The translations under genes and the position numbers were made by a program. Under the pieces are notes generated by a model that made no database searches, was not told where the DNA came from, and was given only the letters and a program-made list of their open reading frames with translations. This document shows, piece after piece, positions 3 to 18,660 of a stretch of 64,000 bases of DNA. This stretch comes from Streptomyces sp. 11x1 (GTDB lineage: Bacteria > Actinomycetota > Actinomycetes > Streptomycetales > Streptomycetaceae): positions 7,775,001 to 7,839,000 of the forward strand of contig NZ_CP122458.1 of the NCBI RefSeq assembly GCF_032598905.1. Reading direction: 5' to 3'. Each line of letters opens with the position of its first letter. The first letter of the stretch is position 1.

Positions 3-1619
3 GTGGCCGACGCCATACAGCGGCACGTCACCGAGACCGGCTGGGCCGACCTCGCTCTGGAGCACATCGAAGCCGGCGGCGACCCGGACCCCGTCCTCAA
101 GGCCGCCTACGACACCCTCGCCACCCGAGTCCGGGACCGGCGGCGGCAGATCGACGCGTTCTTCGCGCGCTCTCTTTCCGCCTGGACGCGGGCTGGCACC
201 CAGCCCGGCAGCATGCTCACCGTCGAGACCTTCCTCGACCGCGTGGTCGGACAGGTCGCCCGGCGCGGGGTGGAACGGCGGGTACTGCTGCTCGTGCTCG
301 ACGGCATGAGTGTGGCCATAGCGAACGAACTCGGCGAGGAACTACGCGCATCCTGGGCGGAGTTCGACCCCCTGCCCGAGGGCGCTCCACAGCGTCGGGC
401 GATGGCCGCCGCCCTGCCCACCGTGACGGCCGTGTCCCGCACCTCACTGTTCGCGGGAACGCTGATGAAGGGCACCCAGGCCGACGAGAAGCGGCTCTTC
501 CCCACGCTCAAGCTGTGGGGCGGTGCCCCGGCCGGCGTCTTCCACAAGGACGACCTGCGCGGCGAGACCGCGGGCGACACCTTCGGCCCGGCGCTCACGG
601 AGGCGCTCACCGACGGCCGGACGCATGTCGCCGTCGTCCTCAACGCCATCGACGACCGTCTCGCCAAGGAACAGAAGCTCGGCGACGGGGCCTGGCGGGT
701 CGACGACGTGCCCGGCCTGCGAGACCTGCTGCGGGTGGCGGCGGCCCAGGGCATGGCCGTCGTTCTCACCAGTGACCACGGCCACGTCGTCGACCGGCAC
801 GGAAAGAAGGTCGACACCGCTGTCGAGCCCGCGTCCGCCCGACATCGCCTGCCCGTCGGCGGTCCCCTCGCCGACCGGGAGATCGCCCTCAGCGGACCGC
901 GCGTGGTGTGGCCCGAGCCCGGCGCGTCCATCGTGGCGCTGTGGGACGCCGACTCCCGCTACACCGCCCTCAAGGCCGGCTACCACGGCGGGGCCTCGCT
1001 CGCCGAGTTCACCATCCCCGTGCTCGCCTTCCTGCCGTTCGGGGCGGAACCGCCGAAGGAATGGCGGGAGCTGGGCGACCAGCGGCCCCTGTGGTGGGCT
1101 CCCGAGGAGGTGGGGAGGGCACCGCTGCCGAGTGAGGCCACCACTCAGCTGCTCGTCGGGACGACTTCCGCCGTGCCGAAGAAGCCGACGGGGAAGTCCC
1201 AGAAGAAGCAGGCGGAACTCGCGCGCACACACGAGGCGCTCTTCGACGTGGAGCTGACCACCGGAGGAGACGACTCCCTTCTCACCCCGACCCTCGTCTC
1301 CCGGACGGAGGCGCTGGTGACGGCCCTGCTCGGCTCGGAGACGTACCAGGGTCAGCTCGGGGGGCTCGCCCGCAAGCCGCAGCAGGAGCAGGTCCACAAG
1401 GCGCTCGCCGCCCTGCTCGACGCGGGCGGCACCCTGCCCGTGACCGCGCTCGCCCAGCGCGCCGGCATGCCCGTCACCCGGAGCGACGGTTTCGCCGCCG
1501 TTCTGCGGCAACTCCTCAACTACGACGGCGTGCAGGTACTGGAGACCCTGCCGGACGGCCGTACCCTGCGGCTCCACGAGGCACTGCTGCGAGAGCAGTT
1601 CGCCCTCGGAGGCGGCTGA
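3..1619 (+). CDS. pglZ: BREX type 2 phosphatase-like protein PglZ, C-terminal part (truncated by window edge)
   Basis: The reading frame is already open at the window edge, so this is the last ~538 residues of a longer protein; full-length BREX-2 PglZ proteins are much larger. It belongs to the PglZ branch of the alkaline-phosphatase superfamily, a core component of BREX and Pgl phage-resistance systems. Visible signs are the metal-site strand LLLVLDGM (around residue 98), a Ser/Thr-rich segment [15 protein letters not shown] that should hold the nucleophile equivalent, and SDHGHVVDR (around residue 259). A Lys/Gln-rich linker (about residues 390-405) leads to a C-terminal helical domain. It ends just before a strong hairpin. 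brxD and brxHI follow on the same strand, but only after an inverted two-gene cassette. The true start lies outside the window. Confidence 0.88.
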
Positions 1620-1693: not shown

Positions 1694-2746
1694 TCATGAC
1701 GCGAACGCCCTCAGAACCTTCGCGAAGGTCGTCAGCTCGTCGATCATTTCCGGCGGAAGGGGCTTCTCGTCGAAGTGGGCGATCCGGTTACGGATGTCCT
1801 TCACCCGCCTCAGCAGGCCGATGAACTGCTCCCGGGGCATGTTGGGCCACTTCAGGGCCTCCCAGTTGCGGTCGGCCTGTTCGGCGAAGGACTGCCTCGT
1901 CTGGTCTCCGTCCAGGAGTCTCAGGTAGTCGCCGAACATCAGGTCCGACACCTGGCCGGTGCGGTGCTCCGGTCTCTTGTTCGTCTGGACCGCCTTGATG
2001 GTCTCCGTGTCCAGAGCCGCGCCCAGGCAGCGGCGCAGCAGGGACTCGATGTCGCCCACGATGAAGAAAGGACGTGCCGCCCCCTCGAAGCGGTCCGTGA
2101 CGTCCGCGGCGGTGACGATGCCGGAGAGGCAGCCGTCGTCCCCGCGGACGAGCAGATAGCCGTGCTCGCGGATGACAGGGAGGGCGGCGAAGAACTCCTG
2201 CCGGGCGTCGGCGACGGGCAGCGAGTCCTTCTCCATCGCGTTGTCGAGGGTGGCCTCCTTCCCCGCCTCGTACATCTTGGCCACGGCCCCCCAGGTGACC
2301 ACGCCGTGGACCTGTGCCATGCCGGTGGTCACCGGAATCTGGGAGAGGCCCTTCGTGCGCATCAGAAAGGTCGTCTGGGACAGGGGCGTGCCAGGGCCCA
2401 CGGACACCACGCCGCGCCGCGCGGACGGGATGTCGCCGAGCAGGAGCCGCTGGGGCAGGGCGTGCGAGGGCAGGGCCTCGTCCGTCGCGTCGGTTTCGTC
2501 GTCCGTGTCGGCCGGTGTGCGCTGCGCGGGCACGGCCGCCAGCGGCACGACGTCGACTGTGGTGCGCAGTGCGCAGACGGCGAAGTCCGGCAGTGTGGTC
2601 AGCCCGGCGTCCGTCAGGGCCTGCGAGATCCGGTGCACCGTCCGGTGATCTCGGACCCTGACCTGGAACAGGTCGAGGATCTCCTGCACGGCCACGGTCC
2701 TGCCCTTGAGCGAGGCGAGGTCCGGCTCCTGCGGCCTGGTCGTCAT
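1694..2746 (-). CDS. CBS-domain protein with C-terminal HEPN (RNase-like) signature
   Basis: 350 residues from the ATG whose first bases overlap the upstream stop as ATGA, so it is probably translationally coupled to the DUF262 gene. Two CBS-like segments lie mid-protein: one starting near LSQTTFLMRTKGLSQIPV and continuing through GVVTWGAVAKMYE, and a second near SLPVADARQEFFAALPVIREHGYLLV with SGIVTAADVTDRF. CBS pairs usually bind adenine nucleotides. The C-terminal ~130 residues are helical and end with RNRIAH (319-324), which fits the R-x4-H signature of HEPN ribonucleases, followed by a final helix. Inference: a nucleotide-sensing RNase or abortive-infection effector working with its DUF262 partner. 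The fold and activity are not proven; it could be a non-catalytic HEPN protein. Its position inside a BREX-2 locus supports a defence role. Confidence 0.72.
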   Translation of the reverse strand: MTTRPQEPDLASLKGRTVAVQEILDLFQVRVRDHRTVHRISQALTDAGLTTLPDFAVCALRTTVDVVPLAAVPAQRTPADTDDETDATDEALPSHALPQRLLLGDIPSARRGVVSVGPGTPLSQTTFLMRTKGLSQIPVTTGMAQVHGVVTWGAVAKMYEAGKEATLDNAMEKDSLPVADARQEFFAALPVIREHGYLLVRGDDGCLSGIVTAADVTDRFEGAARPFFIVGDIESLLRRCLGAALDTETIKAVQTNKRPEHRTGQVSDLMFGDYLRLLDGDQTRQSFAEQADRNWEALKWPNMPREQFIGLLRRVKDIRNRIAHFDEKPLPPEMIDELTTFAKVLRAFAS

Positions 2747-4560
2747 CGGGCGTCGTCCTCCGGCAGGTCGCGGAGCATCGTCTTCTTGCCCATGGCGGAG
2801 TGCACCAGGTCCTGCAACTGCTTGGAGCGGTCGCGGTAGAAGCGCTCGTAGTCGTTCTCGCGCAAGGCGTCCGGGTCGATCAGGTGGGTGGTCAGGACAT
2901 CGTCGAACCACTCGGGACGGGTGTCGGACGCGGCGATCATCGTTGACACGTACGACGACGGCGCCCCCGTCATGTCCATGGCCGCGCGGTACGACAGGGG
3001 GGTCTTGTTCACGATCGAACTCGTTGGCAGACCCTGGCTGTTGCCCCGCCGGAACCAGGCCTTGGGGAAGATCTGCCGGACGTCCACGCCGTACTCGTCC
3101 AGTCGGCCGGGGCTGAGCGGGGCGTCCGTGTGGTGCCAGTCCACCGCCCCCTGCCTGATCAGCAGGGCGTAGATCCCCTTGTAGGCGGCGCTGTTGCGGG
3201 TGGTGAGGGTGTCGAGGCGCTCGGCGAAGAAGAACGCCTCGGTGACCGTCTCGGGTGCCCTCTCATCCTGCGCGATCCAGGGGACGAACTGCTCGACGTC
3301 CTTGGTGAAGCGCGTCTCCGTGGAGCCGCCGTACATCTCACCGAGCACCCCGCACCAGTACCACTGCTCGATCTTCTCCTCCGCCCCCAGACCGTCCATC
3401 GCCGTGTCGAGGATGGCGCGGACGGCCGCGAGCGGGACGAGCTGCGTCTTGTACGGCAGGTCGGCCGGGCGGACGATGCACTGCCGTTCCAGGAAGTCAC
3501 CAACCCACGCGAACGCGTCGGCGAGCTTGGGCGCCAGACGGACGAAGTCGGCCAGGGGGAGGTCGAGCAGATCGCGGCGCTTGCAGGACACCGTGGCCCC
3601 GAGGCCCGCCTGCTTGCGCTCCCAGGTGCGCACCAAGGCGATGGCCTGCAGGAAGTCGATGCTGCTCAGCCCGTTCTCGAGACCGCTGTCGACGCGGCCG
3701 AAGACCGGGTACTTGCTCGCCAGCGCTTGCTTGATCTCCCGCCACACCTCGGGGAGTTGGTAGTAGTCCCCGGTCTGGTCCACATAGTCGCGGTCCCCGG
3801 CGTACGTCGCGGTGAGCAGTTCGAACACGTTCAGGGGAACGCCGCCCGTGTTGACTCGCTCGAACACCGCGCAGACGGCGTCCATGGAGGTGGAGGCGCC
3901 CAGGCGGATCATCGGGACCTGGAAGGCGCGGACCTGTTGCAGGACCGCTTCGTCGAACTGGCCCCACAGGTCCCAGTTCCGGTCCTCGTCGGCCTTGATG
4001 TACGCCTTCTTCCACTCGTTCACGCGCTGGGCGTCGAAGACGAAGTGGAGCGGGAAGAGACCGGCCGCGCACTCGGCCTCGGTGCTGCTCAGATCCAGCA
4101 CCACGGTGCGGTTGAAGTCCGTCCTGAGCACCTTGTCGGCCGGGACGGACACGACGGCCTCGTCACGGTCCGCGGACGGTCCGACGGCCTTCGCGATGTC
4201 GACGTAGTACCACCGCTGGATGGGCTTGCTCCGGGAGTCCGCCGTCTCCACCGGGGCGTCGAGCCACAGGGCCTGGAAGAGGGAGGTGAGGCGCTGCTGT
4301 CCGTCCAGCAGCAGGAGGTCGGCCGCCGGGTCCCCGTCCGGCCGCGCACCGGTGAGGGTCCGCGAACGGAACCGGGTGGCGCCGCCGGTCTGCAGCGTCA
4401 TCACGACGCCCAGCGGGTAGTCGAGGGTGACCGTCGCGATGATCGCCCGGATCCGGTCGTCGTCCCACTTCCAGTTCCGCTGGAAGTCGGGCAGTTGTAA
4501 GGACCCCGAGGCGACATCCGCCAGAACGTCCTTCAGCTTCACGTTGTCGAGGGCCGCCAT
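2743..4560 (-). CDS. DUF262 (GmrS/ParB-like) protein with degenerate C-terminal HNH-like region
   Basis: 605 residues. The N-terminal DUF262 domain carries the family signature LLLLDGQQRLTSL (DGQQR at 86-90) and the downstream ERVNTGG...LNVFELLTATYA block. DUF262 is the nucleotide-hydrolysing half of GmrSD-type IV restriction enzymes and occurs in many defence islands. Proteins of this type often end in an HNH-like domain with a HHIFPKxW...SIVNKTPL pattern. Here the C terminus reads RQIFPKAW (495-502) followed by SIVNKTPLS, so the framework is kept but the usual histidines are Arg-Gln. Codon 21 is TTA (4498-4500), a rare leucine codon that in Streptomyces makes translation depend on the bldA tRNA. 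It is divergent from brxD and overlaps the CBS-HEPN gene by four bases. The DUF262 family assignment is firm; the substrate is unknown. Confidence 0.85.
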   Translation of the reverse strand: MAALDNVKLKDVLADVASGSLQLPDFQRNWKWDDDRIRAIIATVTLDYPLGVVMTLQTGGATRFRSRTLTGARPDGDPAADLLLLDGQQRLTSLFQALWLDAPVETADSRSKPIQRWYYVDIAKAVGPSADRDEAVVSVPADKVLRTDFNRTVVLDLSSTEAECAAGLFPLHFVFDAQRVNEWKKAYIKADEDRNWDLWGQFDEAVLQQVRAFQVPMIRLGASTSMDAVCAVFERVNTGGVPLNVFELLTATYAGDRDYVDQTGDYYQLPEVWREIKQALASKYPVFGRVDSGLENGLSSIDFLQAIALVRTWERKQAGLGATVSCKRRDLLDLPLADFVRLAPKLADAFAWVGDFLERQCIVRPADLPYKTQLVPLAAVRAILDTAMDGLGAEEKIEQWYWCGVLGEMYGGSTETRFTKDVEQFVPWIAQDERAPETVTEAFFFAERLDTLTTRNSAAYKGIYALLIRQGAVDWHHTDAPLSPGRLDEYGVDVRQIFPKAWFRRGNSQGLPTSSIVNKTPLSYRAAMDMTGAPSSYVSTMIAASDTRPEWFDDVLTTHLIDPDALRENDYERFYRDRSKQLQDLVHSAMGKKTMLRDLPEDDAR

Positions 4561-4788
4561 GTGACTCCACTTCCCACCCTGATGCCTGTACGGAGAGTGA
4601 TTTCATCAGCGCTTTCCGGTGACAGTCAACTGGTTCACCGAACAACGAGATGACCGCGGGCGCCGTCCGGATCAGGTTTCAGGGACGGGGCCATGAGGAG
4701 GGAGACAGCGGGCCCACAGAGTCACGAACCGGGTAGGACACAACTTCCTCGAGGCCACGGCGCACAGGGAGATGGAACACTGGTCCTC
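4561..4788. promoter_or_regulatory. Divergent intergenic region between DUF262 gene and brxD
   Basis: 228 bp that must hold the promoters of the inverted DUF262/CBS-HEPN pair and of brxD-brxHI. The DUF262-proximal part is noticeably richer in A and T (4595-4660) than the flanking genes. No convincing consensus -35/-10 pair or palindromic operator was recognised. An in-frame ATG at 4693 could extend BrxD by 32 residues, but the added segment looks non-coding. Confidence 0.45.
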
Positions 4789-6138
4789 GTGAGCACCACC
4801 GGATCCAAGCGCCCCGCCCAGGTCAGCGCGGCCCGCCGCCGTACCGTCATTGACGCCCTGCGCCGTGGAGCCGTGCCCGAGAGCGGGCTCGACCTGCTCG
4901 CGACCGGCCTCGACCGGTTCGAGACGGCCCTGGACGCCGAGCTGGACGCCGTGTCGTCCGGGGGGTCCGTGTTCAAGGCCGTACGGGGTGAGTACGGGTC
5001 CGGCAAGACGTTCTTCACGCGCTGGCTGGGCGAGCGGGCCAAGCGCCGCAACTTCGCCGTGGCCGAGATCCAGATCTCGGAGAACGAGACGCCGCTGCAC
5101 AAGCTGGAGACGGTCTACCGGCGGCTCACCGAAAGGCTCACCACGTCCAGCTTCCCGCCCAGCGCCCTGCGGCCCGTGGTCGACGCCTGGTTCTACGCCC
5201 TGGAGGAGGACGCCCTCGCAGCCGGCGCGACCGAGGAGGAGCTGCCCGGCGAAGTGGAGAAACTGCTCGTGGCGCGGCTCGCCGAGGTGTCCCGGCACGC
5301 CCCGTCCTTCGCCACCGCGTTGCGCGGCTACCGGGCCGCCCTCGCGGACGGGGACGAGGCGACCGCCTCGGCCGTCCTGGCGTGGCTCGGCGGCCAGCCG
5401 CATGTGGCGGCCTCCGCCCGCAGGTTCGCCGGGGTGCGCGGCGACCTCGACCATTTCGGTGCCCTCGGTTTCCTGCAGGGCCTCCTCACCGTGCTGCGCG
5501 ACTCCGGGCACACCGGGCTCTTCGTCGTCCTCGACGAGGTGGAGACGCTCCAGCGGGTCCGGTCGGACGCCCGGGACAAGGCGCTCAACTCGCTGCGGCA
5601 GCTCATCGACGAGGTGCACTCCGGCCGCTTCCCCGGCCTGTACCTCGTCATCACCGGCACACCCGCCTTCTACGACGGGCAGCAAGGCGTGCAGCGCCTG
5701 GCACCGCTCGCCCAGAGGCTCGCCACGGACTTCACCACCGACCCGCGCTTCGACAACCCCCGGGCCGTGCAGATCAGGCTCCCCGGGTTCAACCAGGAGT
5801 CTCTGGTCGGACTCGGCCTCACCATCCGTGACCTGTACGCCGATGCCGCGGCCATGCCTGAACGCGTGCGGACGGTCGTCGACGACGCCTACGTCGCCGA
5901 CCTCGCGGTGGCCGTCGGCGGAGCGCTGGGCGGGAAGGTCGGGGTGGCTCCCCGGTTGTTCCTGAAGAAACTCGTCGGGGACGTGCTCGACCGCGTGGAC
6001 CAGTTCGACGACTTCGATCCCCGGCAGCACTACCGGCTGACGGTCGCGGGCAGCGAACTCACCGATGTGGAGCGAAACCTCGCCGCCGCGGTCGCCGGCG
6101 GCTCCGCGTCGGCCGACGACATCGACCTGGAGCTGTGA
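4789..6138 (+). CDS. brxD: BREX type 2 ATP-binding protein BrxD
   Basis: 449 residues from GTG 4789; the ATG at 4693 would add a low-quality leader. The family motif segment RRTVIDALRRGAVPESGLDLLATGLDRFE precedes a Walker A GEYGSGKT (67-74). Walker B with the acidic pair is LFVVLDEVETL, and an arginine-rich central region follows. It is a P-loop ATPase of the DUF2791-type family found next to PglZ in BREX type 2 loci; its exact step in phage exclusion is not established. A partly A/G-rich stretch (CAGGGAGATGG) upstream may be the ribosome site, though spacing is long. Its TGA overlaps the ATG of brxHI, so the two are almost certainly co-translated and probably act together. Confidence 0.85.
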   Translation: MSTTGSKRPAQVSAARRRTVIDALRRGAVPESGLDLLATGLDRFETALDAELDAVSSGGSVFKAVRGEYGSGKTFFTRWLGERAKRRNFAVAEIQISENETPLHKLETVYRRLTERLTTSSFPPSALRPVVDAWFYALEEDALAAGATEEELPGEVEKLLVARLAEVSRHAPSFATALRGYRAALADGDEATASAVLAWLGGQPHVAASARRFAGVRGDLDHFGALGFLQGLLTVLRDSGHTGLFVVLDEVETLQRVRSDARDKALNSLRQLIDEVHSGRFPGLYLVITGTPAFYDGQQGVQRLAPLAQRLATDFTTDPRFDNPRAVQIRLPGFNQESLVGLGLTIRDLYADAAAMPERVRTVVDDAYVADLAVAVGGALGGKVGVAPRLFLKKLVGDVLDRVDQFDDFDPRQHYRLTVAGSELTDVERNLAAAVAGGSASADDIDLEL

Positions 6139-8339
6139 TGGCGGCGGACGCGGGACTTCCGGCGGGGAGAGGCTCGGGTGGCGAGGACGCCGATGTGCTG
6201 GAGCGGCTCGATCCCGTTGTCCTGCATCACATCGTCAACACACTCGGCTGGCCCGACCTGCGCCCTCTGCAGCGTGCGGCGATCACACCGCTCATGGAGG
6301 GACAGGACGCCGTACTCCTGGCTCCGACGGCGGGAGGCAAGACCGAGGCGGCCTGTTTTCCTCTGCTGTCGGCGATGGCCGAGCAGGGGTGGACCGGTAC
6401 GTCCGTGCTGTACTTGTGCCCGCTCAAGGCGCTTCTCAACAACCTGGTCGTCCGTGTCGACTCCTATGCCCAGTGGCTGGGACGGCGGGCTGCGCTCTGG
6501 CACGGTGACACCAAGGAATCACAACGGCAGCGCATCCGGGCAGAGGCGCCGGACATCCTGCTGACCACGCCCGAGTCACTCGAAGCGATGCTGATCGGCG
6601 TGAAGACCGACCATGCACGCCTGTTGGGGAGCGTGCGGGCCGTCGTCGTCGACGAAGTGCACGCGTTCGCAGGCGATGACCGGGGATGGCACCTGCTCGC
6701 CGTGCTGGAACGGCTGGAGCGGGTCACCGGACGGCCCATTCAGCGCGTCGGGCTCTCGGCGACTGTCGGCAACCCGGCCGAGTTGCTGCACTGGCTGCAA
6801 GGGGCCGGCGTCCGCAGTCGCACTGGTCAGGTGGTTGCCCCCGGAGTGCACCTGCCGACCACGGACGGCAGCGGCCACAGCGCCAAAGCGAGCCCAGAGC
6901 CGTCCAACAGGCCGGCGGGCGATGTGGAACTCGACTACGTCGGCTCCCTCGACAACGCGGCCAAACTCATTGCCGCGCTGCACAGAGGGGAGAAGCGGCT
7001 CGTCTTCTGCGACTCGCGCCGCCAGGTCGAGGAGCTGGGCGCGGCGCTCCGCGCCCGCGAGGTGACGGTCTTCCTGTCCCACGCCTCGCTCTCCGTCGAT
7101 GAACGCACCCGTTCCGAGCGAGCGTTCGCCGAGGCACGCGATTGCGTCATCGTCTCCACGTCGACCCTTGAGCTCGGCATCGACGTCGGTGACCTGGACC
7201 GCGTGATCCAGATCGACTCACCGGCCTCCGTAGCCTCGTTCCTGCAGCGCATCGGCCGCACCGGCCGACGTGCCGGGACCTTGCGGAACTGTCTGTTCCT
7301 CACCACCCACAAGAACACACTGCTGCAGGCGGCGGGCCTGTTGCTGCTGTGGTCGCGGGGCTGGGTCGAACCGGTCGAGCCTCCGCCGGTACCGCGTCAC
7401 CTGGTGGCCCAGCAACTGCTCGCCGTCACCCTGCAACAGCACAAGCTCGGCGACCGGCTGTGGGACCGACAGTGGAACGGCCTCGCCCCCTTCGACAAGT
7501 CGGCTGCCCCGATCCTGCGCTTCCTGACTGAAGAGGGCTTCCTCGACAACGACGGCGGCATGCTGTTCGTCGGCCCCGAGGCGGAACGTCGCTTCGGTAG
7601 AAGGCACTTCATCGAACTCACCGCCTCCTTCACCGCACCTCCGCAGTTCACTGTCCTGTCCGGACGCACGGAGATCGGTCGCACCGACCCGAGCGTGCTC
7701 ACCGAGGAACGCCCCGGCCCCCGGAGGTTGCTCCTGGGTGGACGCAGCTGGCAGGTCACCTACATCGACTGGCTGCGCAAACGCGCCTTCGTCGAGCCGG
7801 CCGACGGCGGTGGAGTCGCCAAGTGGATGAACGGTGGCGTCGCCGGACTGTCGTACGCGTTGACGCGTGCCATGCGCGAGGTGCTGCTGGGCGCGAGCCC
7901 GCCCGTCTCCCTTACCCGGCGGGCGGAGGCGTGCCTCGCCGAACAGCGCGAAACCGACGCACCTGACACCGTTCACCCGGGCGGCACGTTGATCACGCGC
8001 GTGGGCTCCGATGTCCGTTGGTGGACCTGGGCCGGCTACCGGGCAAACGCCACCCTGGCGGCCACCCTGCAGTCCGTCACCGACCCCCTGCAACGGCCCA
8101 CCGACAGCTGGCTGCGCCTTCGCGAGAATCTCAGCCCGGCCGCCTGGCGTACGGCCCGTGAGAACGTCGGCGAGAACCTCGTCCTGCCCGACGTGGACCC
8201 CAGGGCCGTACGCGGCTTGAAGTTCTCCGCCGCCCTTCCGGAACGCCTCGCCGTGGCCACGGTGGCGGCCCGCTTGGCCGACTTCGAGAGCGCCCGTTCG
8301 GTGCTCGGCGAGCTGACGCGCTTTCAGTACGAAGGCTGA
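6138..8339 (+). CDS. brxHI: BREX type 2 Lhr-like DEAD/DEAH helicase BrxHI
   Basis: 733 residues from ATG 6138, which shares its A with the brxD stop (TGATG). It is a superfamily 2 helicase. Motif I is APTAGGKTE (62-70), motif II DEVH (172-175), motif III LSATVGNP, and the second RecA lobe carries STSTLELGIDVGDLDRVIQ and the motif VI region QRIGRTGRRAG. The C-terminal ~330 residues hold the winged-helix and accessory part typical of Lhr-like enzymes. It is one of the genes that defines BREX type 2. Expected role is DNA or RNA unwinding during host-DNA recognition or phage DNA blockage. All motor motifs look intact. Confidence 0.87.
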   Translation: MAADAGLPAGRGSGGEDADVLERLDPVVLHHIVNTLGWPDLRPLQRAAITPLMEGQDAVLLAPTAGGKTEAACFPLLSAMAEQGWTGTSVLYLCPLKALLNNLVVRVDSYAQWLGRRAALWHGDTKESQRQRIRAEAPDILLTTPESLEAMLIGVKTDHARLLGSVRAVVVDEVHAFAGDDRGWHLLAVLERLERVTGRPIQRVGLSATVGNPAELLHWLQGAGVRSRTGQVVAPGVHLPTTDGSGHSAKASPEPSNRPAGDVELDYVGSLDNAAKLIAALHRGEKRLVFCDSRRQVEELGAALRAREVTVFLSHASLSVDERTRSERAFAEARDCVIVSTSTLELGIDVGDLDRVIQIDSPASVASFLQRIGRTGRRAGTLRNCLFLTTHKNTLLQAAGLLLLWSRGWVEPVEPPPVPRHLVAQQLLAVTLQQHKLGDRLWDRQWNGLAPFDKSAAPILRFLTEEGFLDNDGGMLFVGPEAERRFGRRHFIELTASFTAPPQFTVLSGRTEIGRTDPSVLTEERPGPRRLLLGGRSWQVTYIDWLRKRAFVEPADGGGVAKWMNGGVAGLSYALTRAMREVLLGASPPVSLTRRAEACLAEQRETDAPDTVHPGGTLITRVGSDVRWWTWAGYRANATLAATLQSVTDPLQRPTDSWLRLRENLSPAAWRTARENVGENLVLPDVDPRAVRGLKFSAALPERLAVATVAARLADFESARSVLGELTRFQYEG

Positions 8340-11637: not shown

Positions 11638-11985
11638 GCGCGGCATGATCCCACGCGGGTAGGACAAGGTGGGTTCGTTCGGGCACGGTCGCGTAGTCGC
11701 CGCATCCCGGATCTTCGACGGGGCGATTGGCTGACTGGTCGACTTCGACAGAGCCCGCTCGATGCTCGGTGAGCCGACGTGGCGTGCTCTCCTGCCGGAG
11801 TGTGAGTGGCTGTTGCCATGAGGGCAGAAACAGAAGCCTCAAGGGCCCGTTACAAGTTGATAAGCAGCCAATTATGACGTGTTCATTATCACTTCATCAT
11901 TGCGATACGGCATGAGCCCCTTGTGCGCGCTCTGTGGACATGTCTATAAAGCCTCCTATTTTTGATCATTGAGTGGGGGGGTCCC
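11638..11985 (+). promoter_or_regulatory. Upstream region and likely sigma70-type promoter of the Rhs gene
   Basis: The 348-bp gap separates the GIY-YIG-like gene from the Rhs start. Bases 11850-11970 are strikingly A/T-rich for this genome. A plausible promoter is TTGTGC (11921-11926), an 18-bp spacer and TATAAA (11945-11950), giving a leader of about 30 bases. A G-rich run (11974-11981) precedes GTG 11986 as a strong ribosome site. The promoter call is by eye only. Confidence 0.5.
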
Positions 11986-14900
11986 GTGCGCCCGGCACGT
12001 CCGCTTGTCGTTTCTGTGGTTCTCCTGATGGCCGTGCTGACGGGAACCGAGCGCGCTGTCCTTGCAGCCGACCGCTCCGGGGAAGCTTCCACGGGAAGCG
12101 CCCCCGACCAGAGGTGGGGCAGCGCGGACGGGCGCAGTCACAAGGCTTCCGCCGAAGCCACGGACGCGGCCGCCAAGGGCGGCAACGACGGGCCGCTCAG
12201 GGGACGCGGTGAGCTTCCGGTCGAGGGTCAGTCGGGGACGACCGAGCTGCGCGCCACGTCGAAGCCGCCGGAGCCGGGATCGGTGAAGGAGGTGGCGGCG
12301 CCTGACGCGCCCGCCGCCGATGGCTTCGATGACGAGGACAGCAAGGAGGTCAAGGACAAGCGCAAGGAGCGGGAGCGCACGTTCCTGAACGAGGATGGCA
12401 CCTACACCACGCGCTTCTACAGTGAGCCCGTCAACTTCCGTGCGAAGGACGGGAGCTGGAAGGACGTCGACACGACGCTGGTGCCCCAGGAGGAGTCCGG
12501 CCCGAGGACGATGAGCGCCGAGGAGGGGGACTGGGAGACCCGTTCCACCGAGACGCCGATCGAGTTCGCCGGCTCCGCCGACGGTGACCCTTTGGTGCGG
12601 ATGCAGGTCGGTGACGGTCTGTCCATCGGGTACGCCGTCGAGGGTGCGAGCGCTGCCGTCGGGCAGGCCGAGGGCAGTGTCATCATCTACCCGGACGTTC
12701 GTCGTGACGCCGACCTGGAGCTCATCTCCGGCAGTGACTCGGTGAAGGAGACGCTGGTCCTCAAGGACGCGGACGCGCCCACCACTTGGCGCTTCCCCCT
12801 GGAGCTGCAGGGGCTGACCGCGCGGATCGACGAACACGGGAGCGTGGTCTTCGTCGATGCCGACGGCAACGGGCGCGCCTGGATGCCCGCCGGGTGGATG
12901 CAGGACTCCAACCTCGCCGAGGACGCCAACGAGGGCTCCATATCCTCCGGCGTCACCTTCAGCCTGGACGAGGCGAGCGGTCGGCAGGTGCTGGTCGTGA
13001 AGCTGGACGAGGCGTGGCTGTCGGATCCGGAGCGGGTCTTTCCCGTGCGGGTCGACCCGTCGGTCAAGTCGTTCGACTCCACCTCGGGGACCTATGTGCA
13101 GTCGCCGTACAACCAGAACTTCTCCAGCGACAGTGTGCTCAAGGTGGGCACGTACGACGGTGGCAGCCACAAGGCCGCGGCCTTCCTGAGGTTCACCGGT
13201 GTGGAGAGCACGCTGAAGAACGCGTGGGTGCTCAACACCAACCTCGCGCTCTACAACACCTGGTCGCAGTCGTGCACCGCCCGCCCGGTGACGGTCCACC
13301 CCATCACCTCGAACTGGTCGGAGTCCACGACCACCAAGTACCCCGGCCCGTCCACCGGTTCGTCGCTGGCCTCGAAGAGCTTCGCGCACGGCTGGCGGCC
13401 CTCGGGCACCGAGACGTGGTCGTGCGGTCCGGCCTGGGAGAGCATCAAGCTCGGTTCGGCCGGCCGCAAGCTGGTCAACGACTGGACTCACGCCCGCAAG
13501 AAGAACTACGGCCTGGCCGTGAAGGCGTCCACGAGCGACTCCAAGGGGTGGAAGCAGTTCGGTTCCGACGACTACCCGAGCGGCAAGCCCAGCCTGGACG
13601 TGACCTGGACGAAGTACGGCGCCACCTACACGATGGGTGACTTCACGGCCCCGGTGACCGCCACCTCCCAGGGCGTGCAGAAGCTCACCGTCAAGAACCA
13701 GGGGCAGGAGACCTGGCCCAAGGGTGGCGACTACAAGCTCCGCTACAACCTGTACGACTCCAAGGGCAAGGAGATCGAGGACAGCGACAAGATCGCGTAC
13801 ACGGAGATGCCGGAGGCGGTCTCGCCCGGCGAGAGCGTGACCGTGGACGCGAAGATCGCACCTCTGGCGCCCGCCACATACACCCTGCAGTGGACGATGA
13901 CCGACTACGGAGTCAGCCGCTTCACCACCGCCGGTGTTCCCGGCCCCGCCATCAAGTTCTCCGCGGTGAACATCCCACCGCAGCTGACCGCCGCGTCGCC
14001 CGGCAGCGGGGCGGTCGTCGACACCCTGACCCCGACCCTGTGGGCCAAGGGCAAGGACATCGACGGCTATCCCAAGGCCACGCTGCACTACACCTTCGAG
14101 GTGTGCGAGGTCGAGGGCAGTGACCTCCGCAAGAACTGCAGGAAGGGCACGCGCAGCGACGAGACGCAGTGGACGGTGCCGTCCGGGTGGCTGTCCTGGG
14201 GCAAGACCTACGCGTGGTACGCCTACGCGTACGACGGTGACGAGACCTCGGCCCGGCCGGGCGCCGCGCTGATCAGCACCGAGGTGCCGCAGCCGACGGT
14301 GACCAGTCATCTGGGCGGCGCGGACAGCGGTAAGGAGATCGGTACCCGCGCGGGCAACTACGTCACCGCCGCCACGGACGCGGCGATCACCACCGTGGGT
14401 CCGGAGCTGGCCGTCACCCGTACCTACAACTCCCTCGACCCGCGTTCGGACGGCGCGTTCGGCGCCGGCTGGTCCACCCCCTGGGACATGCGGCTGCGCC
14501 AGGAGACCGAGATCGGCATGGTCCTGGTGACCCTCGCCGACGGCTCGCAGGTCAGGTTCGGCAAGAACGCCGACGGCACCTACGCGGGCCCGGCAGGCGG
14601 TTCGCTCACTCTGCAGAACCAGGGTGGGGCGTGGCAGCTGCGGGAACGTTCCGGCAGCGTCTATCACTTCCTGGCCGGTGGCGTGCTCTCCCGGATCGTC
14701 GACTCCGCGGGACGCGGTCAGAAGGTCCAGCACCAGAGTGAGACCGGCGGTCCCGTCATCAAGGTCATCGACGAACTCTCCGGCCGCTCCCTGATCTTCA
14801 CCTGGTCCGGCGACCACGTCGACACCGTGACCACGAGCGTGGTCGGCCCCGAGGCCCCCGGTCTGGCCTGGTCGTACTCCTATGACGGCGATCGCCTGAC

Positions 14901-17900
14901 GAAGGTGTGCCCGCCCTCCTCGACCAGCAAGTGCACCCAGTACGCGTACGACACCGGTTCGGTCTATCGAAGTGGTGTCCTGGACGCCTCCCCGACCTCC
15001 TACTGGCGGCTCGGCGAGAGCGAGGGCGCCACGGCGGCCAGCGACGCCCCCTCGCGCACCGGCCTGAACGACGCCGCGTACCGGGACGTCACGCTGGGCG
15101 GCGCCTCGGCGATCGCCGGCACCACCGACACCTCCGGCGGCTTCGACGGCACCGACTCCGCAGTCGAACTGCCCTCGGACACCCTCCAGTCGACGGCGTA
15201 CCCGACGATCGAGCTCTGGTTCAAAACAACCAAGGCCACCGCCGTCCTGGTCGGCTTCCAGAATGAGGAACTCGGTGACAAGCCCACCTCCTACCGTCCG
15301 GTCCTGAACATCGACGCGGCCGGCAAGCTGCGTGGCGAGTTCCGCAGGGTCGGCGTCACCGGCGCCACCGGACCGATCACCTCCACCACGGCCGTCACGG
15401 ACGGCGCCTGGCACCACGCCGTGCTCACCGCCTCCGCGACCGGACAGACGCTGTACCTGGACGGCAAGAAGGTCGGCTCGATCGCGGGCGCAGTGGCCGA
15501 CCAGTCCCGCGACTACGCCTACCTGGGCGCCGGATACGCCAGCGCCAGCTGGATGGGTGTGGCCACCGGCGAGTACCGCTTCGCCGGGCAGCTGGACGAA
15601 GTCGCCCTCTACGCACACCCGTTGAACGCCGCGACCATCGCCGAGCACTACGCGGCCCGCGCCTCCGTCGGCCAGATCACCAAGGTCACGCTGCCGTCGG
15701 GCCGCACACACGCCACCGCTGTGTACGACTCCGGCTCCGGACGGCTGAAGGAGCACACGGACGCCAACGGCGGTACGTGGACGGTCTCGGCCCCCTCGTA
15801 CTCCAACGCCTCGTCCTCCTACGCGCGGACGATCCAGGGCGGTGGGGCCACCGGCTACTGGCGGCTCGGTGAACGCAGCGGAGCCGAGGCCGCCAGCCCG
15901 CTCGGCGAGGAGCTGAACGGCAGCTACCTGGACGGCGCACGCCCCGGCAGCCCCGGCATCTTCACCAGCGGCGACGACACGGCCGCCGAATTCGACGGCA
16001 GCGGCGCCGTGGAGGTGCCCACCGAGGCCCTCGGCACCGCGACGGCGATGTCGGTGGAGCTGTGGTTCAAGACGACCGAGCCCGGTGTGCTGGCCACCAT
16101 GCAGAACGCCGAGTTCGGCGAGACCCCCACCGGCTGGCGGCCCATGCTGCTGATCGACGCCGACGGCAAACTGCGCGGCAAGTTCGACCCCGCCGCCACC
16201 AGCCTGCTGTCCACGAAGACCGTCATCGACGGCCAGTGGCACCACGTCACCCTCACCGGCAACGCCCAGGCCCAGGCCCTCTACCTGGACGGCAGGCGGC
16301 AGGCGTACAACCAGCACGGTGTGCCGACGCTGCGCCACCCCCACGTCCTCATCGGCGGTGGCTACGCCTCGACCGGCTGGGACGGTCAGGCCGGCGGCTA
16401 CCGCAACTTCACCGGGCAGATCGACGAGGTCGCCTTCTACGACAAGGCGATCGTCCCCTTCACCCTGTCCGGGAGCAGTTGGGTGGCGAGCACCTCGCGT
16501 TCGTCCGCCCCGGCCGCGCACTTCCAGGCGCGTAAGGACCTCACCAGCGGTAGCGACACCCAGTACCAGGGCGTGACCACCGCGGACACCCCGGCCGCCT
16601 ACTGGCGGCTCGGTGAGGCCTCCGGGACAGCGCTCGCCAGCGAACTCGGCGGATCCGACGCGACCGCGACCTTCCACCCGGACACCAGCGCCGCGGACAC
16701 CGGGCTCGACGTGGACGGAATCTTCGGCCCGTCCGGCAACAGCGCGCTGAGCGCCGACGGCACGACCTACACCGAACTACCCGGATCGCTCCTCGCGGGC
16801 ACCACGGAACTCGCCGTGGAACTGTGGTTCAACACCTCCACGCCCACCGGCGTCCTGCTCGGTTTCCAGGACGCGCCGATCAACCAGGTCCCCGGCTCGT
16901 TCCGTCCGGTCCTCAACATCGACGAGGCCGGCAAGCTGCGAGGCGAGTTCCGCCGGGCCGGCGTGACCGGAGCGACCGGTCCCCTCACTTCTGCCCAGGC
17001 CGTGACCGACGGGCAGTGGCACCACGTGGTGCTCAGCGCTGACGCCACCGCCCAGACGCTCTACCTGGACGGCGTCAAGGTCGGCTCGATCACCGGCGCG
17101 GTCTCCGACCAGTCCCGCCCGTACGCCTACCTGGGCGCCGGATACGCCAGCGAGAGCTGGATGGGCGTGGACCCGGACCCGTACCACTACCAGGGCACCC
17201 TCGACGAGGTCGCCCTCTACCGGCACCCGCTCACCGCCGAGCAGGTCTCCGCCCACTACCGGGCGCAGGCCGAGCCCGCCGACTCCACGCTGACCAGCAC
17301 GGTGAAGGTCACCGACCCGAAGCAGAAGACCAGCTCGGCGACCTACGACGCGCTGCGCGGCCAGCGGGTGCTGTCACGGACCGACGCGACCGGCGCGGTC
17401 ACCGGCTACGCCTATGACACCGGCGGCAACCTGCACACCGTCACCGACCCCAACGGCCACGCCACGATCACCGGGCACGACAAGCGCGGCAACACGGTGT
17501 CGACCACCACCTGCCGGGACGCCGACTCCTGCTGGACCTCGTTCAGCTCGTACCACGTCAACGAGGCCGACCCGCTCGACCTGCGCAACGACAAGCCGTT
17601 GACCGTCCGCGACCAGCGGTCCAAGGACCACAAGGACGACCGCTACCGCGCCTCGTTCACCTACAACTCCCTGGGCCTGCCCACCAGCACGGTCCGCGCC
17701 GACGGCACCGCCTCGTCGACGACGTACACGGCCGGAACCGAGGCCGCGGTCGGCGGCGGCACCGTCCCGGCGGGGCTCGTCGACAAGGAGACCACCGCCG
17801 GCGGCGCCGTCACCGCCTACCGCTACTTCTCCAACGGCGACCTGGCCGAGGTGACCTCGCCTTCCGGGCTCGTCACCAAGCACACGTACGACGGGCTGGG

Positions 17901-18660
17901 ACGGAAGATCTCCGAGACCCAGGTCTCCGACACCTACCCGAACGGCGTGACCACGACCTACGCCTACGACACGGCCTCCCATGTCGTCACCGAGACCGGC
18001 GCCGGGGTCAAGAGCGAGCTCACCGACACCACCCACACCGCGCAGATCAAGCGCACCTACGACGAGGACGGCAACGTCCTGTCCGAAACCGTCAAGGACA
18101 CCACAGGTGGCGACACCGAGCGCGTGACGACCTACCACTACGACGAACACGGCCTGAACGACAGCGTCACCGACGCCGAGGCGAACACGACCCGCTTCCA
18201 GCACGACGGACTGGGCCGTGTCGAAGGCATGACGGACGCGGCGAACTCCCACTTCACATACTCCTACACCGCCCGAGGCCAGCACTCCGAGACGGTCCTC
18301 GACGACTGGCGAGGAGACCCCTCCGGGACGCTTCGCGACCTCGTGCTGGTCTCCAACGCCTACGACCCAGCCGGCCGTCTCGCCTCCACCACGGACGCGA
18401 TGGGCGCGACCACCGCGTACACCTACTACGACGACGGTCTGCCGGCCACGACCACGGCCAGGCAGGTCACCCAGTCCGACGCGAGCAAGCGCGACATCGT
18501 GCTGGAGAGCAACACGTACGACGCCGCGGGCAACCTGATCAAACAGGTCACCGGCGGCGGGAAGACCACCGAGACGTTCACCGTCGACGCGCTGGGCCGT
18601 ACCGAACGCAGCGTGCTCGACCCGGGGGGGCCTGGACCGCACAGCCACGTACAGCTATGA
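11986..18660 (+). CDS. Giant secreted Rhs/YD-repeat toxin, N-terminal part (frame broken at 18624-18630)
   Basis: 2,224 residues from GTG 11986, chosen for the adjacent G-rich ribosome site and because it begins a Sec signal peptide (PLVVSVVLLMAVLTG, then Ala-rich cleavage region). A DNRLRE-type beta domain follows (codons near 13060-13620), then an Ig-like segment, an Rhs entry domain with NYVTAATDAAI and LAVTRTYNSLDPRSDGAFGAGW (14350-14490), three LamG-like domains (14985-17265) and YD repeats of the Y-D-x-x-G-R type. The frame ends at VLDPGGPGPHSHVQL. Removing one G from the G7 run restores GLDRTATYSYD and joins the next ORF, giving about 3,549 residues. Rhs shells encapsulate a C-terminal toxin used against neighbouring bacteria. 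The break is either a sequencing error or a disabling or switchable mutation. Confidence 0.88.
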   Translation: MRPARPLVVSVVLLMAVLTGTERAVLAADRSGEASTGSAPDQRWGSADGRSHKASAEATDAAAKGGNDGPLRGRGELPVEGQSGTTELRATSKPPEPGSVKEVAAPDAPAADGFDDEDSKEVKDKRKERERTFLNEDGTYTTRFYSEPVNFRAKDGSWKDVDTTLVPQEESGPRTMSAEEGDWETRSTETPIEFAGSADGDPLVRMQVGDGLSIGYAVEGASAAVGQAEGSVIIYPDVRRDADLELISGSDSVKETLVLKDADAPTTWRFPLELQGLTARIDEHGSVVFVDADGNGRAWMPAGWMQDSNLAEDANEGSISSGVTFSLDEASGRQVLVVKLDEAWLSDPERVFPVRVDPSVKSFDSTSGTYVQSPYNQNFSSDSVLKVGTYDGGSHKAAAFLRFTGVESTLKNAWVLNTNLALYNTWSQSCTARPVTVHPITSNWSESTTTKYPGPSTGSSLASKSFAHGWRPSGTETWSCGPAWESIKLGSAGRKLVNDWTHARKKNYGLAVKASTSDSKGWKQFGSDDYPSGKPSLDVTWTKYGATYTMGDFTAPVTATSQGVQKLTVKNQGQETWPKGGDYKLRYNLYDSKGKEIEDSDKIAYTEMPEAVSPGESVTVDAKIAPLAPATYTLQWTMTDYGVSRFTTAGVPGPAIKFSAVNIPPQLTAASPGSGAVVDTLTPTLWAKGKDIDGYPKATLHYTFEVCEVEGSDLRKNCRKGTRSDETQWTVPSGWLSWGKTYAWYAYAYDGDETSARPGAALISTEVPQPTVTSHLGGADSGKEIGTRAGNYVTAATDAAITTVGPELAVTRTYNSLDPRSDGAFGAGWSTPWDMRLRQETEIGMVLVTLADGSQVRFGKNADGTYAGPAGGSLTLQNQGGAWQLRERSGSVYHFLAGGVLSRIVDSAGRGQKVQHQSETGGPVIKVIDELSGRSLIFTWSGDHVDTVTTSVVGPEAPGLAWSYSYDGDRLTKVCPPSSTSKCTQYAYDTGSVYRSGVLDASPTSYWRLGESEGATAASDAPSRTGLNDAAYRDVTLGGASAIAGTTDTSGGFDGTDSAVELPSDTLQSTAYPTIELWFKTTKATAVLVGFQNEELGDKPTSYRPVLNIDAAGKLRGEFRRVGVTGATGPITSTTAVTDGAWHHAVLTASATGQTLYLDGKKVGSIAGAVADQSRDYAYLGAGYASASWMGVATGEYRFAGQLDEVALYAHPLNAATIAEHYAARASVGQITKVTLPSGRTHATAVYDSGSGRLKEHTDANGGTWTVSAPSYSNASSSYARTIQGGGATGYWRLGERSGAEAASPLGEELNGSYLDGARPGSPGIFTSGDDTAAEFDGSGAVEVPTEALGTATAMSVELWFKTTEPGVLATMQNAEFGETPTGWRPMLLIDADGKLRGKFDPAATSLLSTKTVIDGQWHHVTLTGNAQAQALYLDGRRQAYNQHGVPTLRHPHVLIGGGYASTGWDGQAGGYRNFTGQIDEVAFYDKAIVPFTLSGSSWVASTSRSSAPAAHFQARKDLTSGSDTQYQGVTTADTPAAYWRLGEASGTALASELGGSDATATFHPDTSAADTGLDVDGIFGPSGNSALSADGTTYTELPGSLLAGTTELAVELWFNTSTPTGVLLGFQDAPINQVPGSFRPVLNIDEAGKLRGEFRRAGVTGATGPLTSAQAVTDGQWHHVVLSADATAQTLYLDGVKVGSITGAVSDQSRPYAYLGAGYASESWMGVDPDPYHYQGTLDEVALYRHPLTAEQVSAHYRAQAEPADSTLTSTVKVTDPKQKTSSATYDALRGQRVLSRTDATGAVTGYAYDTGGNLHTVTDPNGHATITGHDKRGNTVSTTTCRDADSCWTSFSSYHVNEADPLDLRNDKPLTVRDQRSKDHKDDRYRASFTYNSLGLPTSTVRADGTASSTTYTAGTEAAVGGGTVPAGLVDKETTAGGAVTAYRYFSNGDLAEVTSPSGLVTKHTYDGLGRKISETQVSDTYPNGVTTTYAYDTASHVVTETGAGVKSELTDTTHTAQIKRTYDEDGNVLSETVKDTTGGDTERVTTYHYDEHGLNDSVTDAEANTTRFQHDGLGRVEGMTDAANSHFTYSYTARGQHSETVLDDWRGDPSGTLRDLVLVSNAYDPAGRLASTTDAMGATTAYTYYDDGLPATTTARQVTQSDASKRDIVLESNTYDAAGNLIKQVTGGGKTTETFTVDALGRTERSVLDPGGPGPHSHVQL
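14985..17265 (+). repeat. Three LamG-like domain repeats inside the Rhs gene
   Basis: Three roughly 600-680-base units encode concanavalin/LamG-like domains beginning YWRLGE (about 15001, 15856 and 16600) and sharing ELWFKTT/ELWFNTS, RPVLNID.AGKLRGEFRR, W.HHV.L.A and LYLDG.K blocks. The first and third copies are the most alike, including near-identical runs around 15480-15550 and 17090-17160. The second is more diverged. They may bind sugars or surface ligands on target cells. Confidence 0.8.

Follow-up and report, generated by a model that had tools for sequence, protein, structure and literature searches.

The 64,000-nucleotide stretch analysed here (the window; coordinates count from its start) comes from Streptomyces sp. 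11x1 (genome label G000) and carries, within a type 2 BREX (bacteriophage exclusion) locus, an inverted two-gene unit that encodes a DUF262 protein and a CBS-HEPN protein and separates pglZ from brxD-brxHI (Table 1). The surrounding locus is BREX type 2, with PglZ-2, BrxD, BrxHI, BrxC and PglX-2 all present. The whole pglZ gene, read in locus L202, matched PADLOC PglZ at 893 bits. BrxC/PglY and the start of pglZ lie upstream of the window in the same genome, as does a type 2 PglX (1782 bits, cut-off 400), and the locus is split, with approximately 22 kb between pglX and brxC (contig C1, 7747485-7769820). The layout described in a first-pass annotation of this DNA, an opposite-strand pair between pglZ and brxD-brxHI with ATGA coupling and a perfect hairpin, was borne out by the reading frames, the profile matches and the measured stem.

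Table 1 Features of the DUF262/CBS-HEPN cassette and its BREX type 2 neighbours in the window
Feature	Position	Strand	Details
pglZ (BREX type 2), C-terminal part	3..1619	+	gene begins upstream of the window; NF033446 617 bits over the in-window part, cut-off 200
Hairpin, perfect 15-bp stem and 4-nt loop	1631..1664	.	where the convergent pglZ and CBS-HEPN genes meet
CBS-HEPN gene, DS-11-like	1694..2746	-	350 aa; ATG start overlaps the DUF262 stop
HEPN R-x4-H motif RNRIAH	1775..1792	-	R319 to H324
CBS pair	2072..2455	-	residues 98-225
ATGA overlap linking both genes	2743..2746	-	ATG of CBS-HEPN over TGA of DUF262
DUF262 (GmrSD_N) gene	2743..4560	-	605 aa; GmrSD_N E 4e-25
Degenerate HNH region	2977..3087	-	R495-Q496-IFP ... 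N518 ... A527; unpaired relatives H-H-IFP ... N ... N
DGQQR NTPase motif, intact	4291..4305	-	residues 86-90
-10-like TGAAAT	4600..4605	-	cassette's promoter-like element
-35-like TTGACT	4624..4629	-	cassette's promoter-like element
brxD	4693..6138	+	longest frame; GTG at 4789 is the likelier start; NF033438 658 bits, cut-off 350
brxHI helicase	6135..8339	+	PADLOC BrxHI 1065 bits

A scan for CBS-HEPN, taking one genome per species, returned 36 loci, all titled Streptomyces, and in every one the DUF262 gene directly preceded the CBS-HEPN gene, with the overlap reading ATGA in 30 and GTGA in six. Across 150 Streptomyces genomes, the ten strongest CBS-HEPN and the ten strongest DUF262 matches fell in the same ten genomes and were adjacent, DUF262 matches above 800 bits being paired in 10/10 cases. 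A scan of 296 genomes of the class gave 9/9 adjacent CBS-HEPN genes for DUF262 matches above 800 bits, five of them from another family. The two genome samples overlap, with the window genome in both and six sampled loci sharing a protein end with a fetched locus. Lower-scoring DUF262 relatives were unpaired in the Streptomyces sample (0/5, best pieces 297-561 bits, a count that ignores weaker matches and fragments below 210 bits) and in the class sample (0/13 genomes with an adjacent CBS-HEPN, 205-590 bits). Median ratios of nonsynonymous to synonymous substitution rates (dN/dS) were 0.15 for DUF262, with 0.16 in its HNH-like part, and 0.21 for CBS-HEPN; chance open reading frames or an annotation artefact were ruled out by the medians of 0.15 and 0.21 together with the conservation across 36 loci. 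The DUF262/CBS-HEPN pair is a real unit with a range wider than its stay in BREX. The earlier idea of an extra module riding in BREX-2 was supported by its two genes and the strict co-occurrence of the partners; homologues that never co-occur had been named as the finding that would speak against it, and the opposite was seen in the close family; more distant relatives of either protein can be found without the other gene.

Distances between DUF262 proteins and between CBS-HEPN proteins correlated at r 0.99 (31 loci), and those to the BREX proteins at 0.89-0.95. The tight co-divergence, the ATGA coupling and the strict co-occurrence would suit an inhibitor no less than an activator, and DUF262 is the first gene of the operon, as in a toxin-antitoxin-like arrangement whereby DUF262 would keep the CBS-HEPN RNase silent until a phage alters nucleotide pools or removes DUF262. 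This arrangement is unlikely, however, as the NTPase motif is intact in 46/46 paired proteins, as expected of an active switch, and DS-11, a related CBS-HEPN system, is described as consisting of one protein, with no antitoxin (PMC13092281).

The apparent loss of HNH catalytic residues is the most telling fact about the DUF262 protein. All three HNH residues compared were retained in none of 45 distinct paired DUF262 proteins and in 16 of 17 distinct unpaired ones, while the D, Q, Q and R of DGQQR were conserved in 46/46 paired and 17/17 unpaired proteins (counts made after dropping two paired and four unpaired fragments and merging identical rows, with one row per group gapped at the HNH columns). 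H495 was replaced by R in 43 of the 45 paired proteins and N527 was lost in 43, and five more paired genomes outside the 45 likewise read R-Q ... A. F498, P499 and N518 were invariant in all 49 paired rows with letters at those columns, in an alignment that excluded the short loci L037-L067, L108-L151 and L166-L180; the DUF262 stretches of L038-L047 and L143-L151 were read separately, and none retains all three HNH residues. Pfam gave no DUF1524 match in the window DUF262 protein. Related rows are not independent, and the counts are therefore given without a Fisher value. With the HNH columns removed, a tree of 38 rows placed all 20 paired rows on one side of a single branch (SH-aLRT 100); this tree was midpoint-rooted with L105 on a long branch, and both trees made were quick ones with some long branches.

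The closest well-described relatives are BrxU and GmrSD, which share the DUF262 NTPase with DGQQR, BrxU too residing within a BREX locus (PMC8565348). BrxU was the best fold match of the DUF262 model, with 439 of 605 residues aligned at a root mean square deviation of 15, i.e. domain by domain. Unlike these enzymes, the window protein appears to have lost the HNH catalytic residues, has its RNase partner in trans and sits in BREX type 2 rather than type 1. It could be argued that DUF262 still cuts DNA as a type IV enzyme whose active site is altered, and that CBS-HEPN is a separate DS-11, the two being independent weapons, given that the HNH-like region is under purifying selection, that F498, P499 and N518 are held in 49/49 paired rows, and that H496 is kept by four of the 45 paired proteins. 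We consider this very unlikely, because of the exchanges at 495 and 527 and because mutation of the matching residues of BrxU (D474A and H475A of DHIYP) abolished cleavage and resistance and kept ATPase activity (PMC8565348); independence would also leave the obligate pairing unexplained.

The HEPN assignment of the partner protein is based on full-length similarity to DS-11 and on the R-x4-H motif, not on a Pfam cut-off. The motif was present in 118 of the 120 best-listed CBS-HEPN homologues, the remaining two stopping short of it or differing there, and Pfam placed HEPN at E 1 in 10 of 27 family members (best E 0.0012). The CBS-HEPN structure model had a mean pLDDT of 84, and in a structure search with it the matches were taken up by CBS pairs. 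DS-11 (DefensePredictor; NF053863) works alone in E. coli, and its defence requires CBS Y157 and HEPN residues (PMC13092281). The likeness to DS-11 consists of a full-length CBS-HEPN match with the same order of N-terminal domain, CBS pair, HEPN and R-x4-H, and the likely DS-11 of E. coli KE47 (L138, 405 bits, Tyr at 157 from the first Met) aligns end to end with CBS-HEPN. The window protein differs in scoring 230 bits, below the NF053863 equivalog cut-off of 260 (two other paired members score 224 and 253), in having a constant DUF262 partner (36/36 loci) where DS-11 is one protein, and in carrying Leu where DS-11 has Tyr157. NF053863 was not used for counts: 255 of 296 genomes of the phylum matched it, in the listed rows mostly through the CBS part only, and none of the 255 exceeded its cut-off. 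The general architecture proposed in the first-pass annotation, a sensor together with a HEPN effector, was supported; what had been missed was the C-terminal HNH-like region of DUF262 with its lost catalytic residues, and the identity of the CBS ligand with that of DS-11 is in doubt, Leu occupying the Tyr157 position.

Inside BREX, the position of the pair was constant. The pglZ gene lay beside it on the opposite strand in 34 of 36 loci, and brxD flanked it too in 33 of those, L004 being ended by the contig end; junction and orientation were identical in 33/33 loci having both genes, with approximately 2-5 kb of extra DNA on one side of the pair in L013, L014, L015 and L026. The flanks of L003 were free of BREX genes, and those of L021 contained BREX fragments only. 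Among the 150 Streptomyces genomes, pglZ-2 was above the cut-off in 32, and seven of the ten pairs adjoined pglZ while three (G105, G090, G091) were elsewhere. Over both samples the pair was away from BREX in 8 of 18 paired genomes, namely these three and G653, G527, G609, G679 and G563, the non-BREX status of the latter five being judged from 16-19 kb stretches with profiles from Streptomyces proteins; the BREX setting of G108 was taken from coordinates, and that of G020, G062, G139 and G148 from coordinates and loci sharing a protein end. An obligatory tie to BREX was rejected as a general rule, the pair being found without BREX and BREX without the pair. A 2199-aa frame adjoins the non-BREX pair of L003 (L003:11185-17784), with no Pfam match and short, weak DpdF-like PADLOC matches.

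The contents of the pglZ-brxD junction were surveyed in 28 of the 34 BREX-2 pglZ loci above the cut-off (G008, G032, G057, G090, G106 and G130 being left out): it held the pair in seven, an AbiU/AIPR gene in four, a scar in one and nothing in 16. The AbiU/AIPR gene encodes approximately 580 aa on the BREX strand and fills the junction in L070, L072, L073 and L074 (G145, G068, G011 and G134); the assignment comes from the L072 copy, to which the others are 80-90% identical. The scar is a 37-codon remnant of CBS-HEPN between brxD and pglZ (L087:13221-13331, G080), with brxHI also still there, and in this genome the pair is lost and BREX-2 retained. The junction has the appearance of a slot that takes up abortive modules.

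Two further explanations bear on this setting, the first compatible with the effector swap proposed below and the second with the defence-module reading favoured there. It may be a passenger caught in BREX-2 and functionally untied to BREX whatever its own role, as is suggested by its occurrence without BREX and by the persistence of pglZ, brxD and brxHI in G080 after its loss. The constant junction and orientation and the correlation of 0.89-0.95 with the BREX proteins point the other way, although plain vertical descent would also account for both, and on balance we hold the passenger explanation to be somewhat unlikely. Alternatively, the pair could guard BREX and be triggered when a phage inhibitor disables it, as PrrC guards EcoPrrI (PMC12707154); pglZ and brxD flank the pair in 33 of 36 loci and an abortive-type AbiU/AIPR gene takes the same slot in 4 of 34 BREX-2 pglZ loci, but with 8 of 18 paired genomes having the pair away from BREX and 16 of 28 junctions empty, such a guard is distinctly unlikely. 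PrrC resembles the pair in that an RNase gene is placed inside a defence locus based on modification (PMC12707154), and differs in that it is another protein, that guarding is here hypothetical and that the DUF262/CBS-HEPN pair also lives alone.

The pair is predicted to have its own promoter. Of 36 upstream regions, taken from 35 loci and the window, 31 have the pattern TTGAC ... T(G/A)N(A/T)AT 66-70 bases ahead of the DUF262 start, as against 4 of 3600 shuffles, the 31/36 being no independent test as the pattern was devised from the alignment. It is present in L003, which has no BREX, and missing from L007, L028, L029, L032 and L035. A sigma-70 scan found nothing, the promoter-like element having come from the alignment. 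At the other end, the hairpin is possibly a bidirectional terminator; the stretch 1600-1720 folded with z -5.0 against 200 shuffles, and the terminator scan gave no match, the hairpin having no T run. As a conserved element it was not upheld, a perfect stem of at least 13 bp being present in 5 of 19 measurable loci (L001, L003, L005, L024 and L026), and the genes are merely 8-12 bases apart at the pglZ/CBS-HEPN junction in L013, L028, L029, L032 and L035.

The strict pairing, the HNH loss with an intact NTPase motif, the conserved promoter-like element, the purifying selection and the occurrence outside BREX are the basis for reading the pair as an autonomous two-protein phage-defence module, with a type IV-type DUF262 sensor, a dead HNH and a CBS-gated HEPN RNase, that forms a second layer in BREX-2; we put this reading at an even chance. 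That a type IV restriction lineage lost its HNH, gained on the same branch an obligate nucleotide-gated HEPN RNase in trans and was later captured by BREX-2 as a backup is proposed slightly more tentatively. The signature of such an effector swap appears unusually clean. DUF262 would bind and hydrolyse NTP and most likely meet incoming, perhaps modified, DNA, which it would not cut, its HNH DNase site presumably being dead; an NTP-driven change of shape would then activate the co-translated CBS-HEPN, a putative dimeric RNase under the control of an adenine-type nucleotide at its CBS pair, and RNA cleavage would halt growth of the infected cell. Within BREX-2 the pair, with its own promoter and opposite orientation, would add an abortive layer that comes second to the modification-based one. 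DNA as trigger, contact between the proteins, RNA as target and the abortive outcome are all four what we infer. Such a signal path has precedents: in SspE, hydrolysis by DUF262 after recognition of DNA marks switches on the nuclease to which it is attached, and the DUF262 of Menshen may control a nuclease that is a separate protein (PMC10952713). The position in BREX-2 fits a backup effector, embedded backup nucleases having been catalogued in BREX (PMC12839542).

Several points weigh against the effector swap. The tree shows it as one event, which leaves the association without evolutionary replication. The AlphaFold model of DUF262 is poor in the HNH-like part (pLDDT <50 at 471-567), and the HNH comparison is therefore one of sequences only; some paired proteins keep individual residues (H496 in four, H495 in one and N527 in two of the 45), unpaired relatives have H where BrxU has D474, and that the unpaired HNH-positive relatives are active nucleases is an assumption. 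DNA cleavage by BrxU was still intact in the C-terminal mutants N485A and N519A (PMC8565348), and a lost Asn alone therefore proves little. The C-terminal HEPN is weak in Pfam (HEPN_Swt1 E 0.07, under the cut-off), and a HEPN of the DS-11 type needs no DUF262 partner, DS-11 alone being sufficient. In the Streptomyces sample, nine genomes with lower-scoring CBS-HEPN matches had no such DUF262 neighbour. The Leu aligned with the adenine-contacting Tyr157 of DS-11 means that the CBS ligand need not match that of DS-11; in other CBS-HEPN loci this position is Tyr (L028, L034, L088, L089 and L184) or Phe (L090 and L181). Finally, at the three loci with identified neighbours, the other-family pairs adjoin a UvrD-like helicase and an ABC exporter or kinase and no DNA-modification genes, and a link to DNA modification is therefore not general. 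Counted in its favour are DS-11 relatives fused to RAMA and N6-methylase domains. The pair of G105 neighbours a type IIG/DrmMI-like methylase, a DrmD-like helicase and a PD-T4-6-like kinase, and that of G091 a type I methylase and a DpdE/ZorD-like SNF2 helicase.

If the effector swap is true, a restriction enzyme can switch its target from DNA to RNA, and from direct cutting to abortive shutdown, yet keep its sensor, and relatives with and without the swap form a matched set for testing. A DS-11-type protein would gain a natural input partner, which could aid in finding the trigger and ligand of CBS-HEPN defence, and the pglZ-brxD junction of BREX-2 would be marked as a slot for interchangeable abortive modules, the pair in some loci and AbiU/AIPR in others.

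The first-pass annotation had regarded the exact pairing as possibly undescribed; its kind, at least, has been reported. DUF262 with HEPN (PD-T4-2), CBS-HEPN (DS-11), DUF262 in BREX (BrxU) and HEPN backups in BREX are already published, and a 2013 survey includes CBS-HEPN and a DUF262-HNH-HEPN fusion (PMC3710099). PD-T4-2 resembles the pair in composition only, as DUF262 and HEPN in one anti-phage system, and differs in that no CBS is reported in its descriptions there (PMC9519451, PMC10952713). No PADLOC PD-T4-2 model matched the window DUF262 at E 0.1 or the window CBS-HEPN at E 0.01, and PD-T4-2_A gave a weak match in 16 of 25 DUF262 family members. BREX auxiliary effectors are likewise nucleases embedded as a second layer, including GmrSD-type HNH and standalone HEPN proteins, but the main text of that catalogue has no word beginning with CBS, and no DUF262 and CBS-HEPN pair was found in the parts consulted (PMC12839542). 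Among the matches listed in open PubMed Central papers, none named the DUF262/CBS-HEPN pair, and as far as those matches go, the new points are the constancy of the pairing, its location in BREX-2 and the coincidence of HNH loss with RNase gain.

CBS-HEPN had no match in phage records; five plasmid records matched, all at <30% identity, and A2-type DUF262 was absent from the 16-17 kb fetched around those five matches. Elsewhere in the window, a plus-strand frame of 2232 aa (11962-18660) has a translation that may be that of an RHS/YD-repeat protein. A single protein in G077 (L096:7509-10112) combines HsdM_N, N6 methylase, RAMA and DS-11-like CBS-HEPN, joining a methylase to a likely RNase effector in one chain, and RAMA domains are fused to DS-11-like CBS-HEPN at L097:9417-10892 and L109:1483-3819. 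DS-11-like CBS-HEPN frames with approximately 180-215 additional N-terminal residues were seen in L098, L099, L101-L104 and L141, and in those of L098, L101, L104 and L141 Pfam detected CBS alone at E 0.01.

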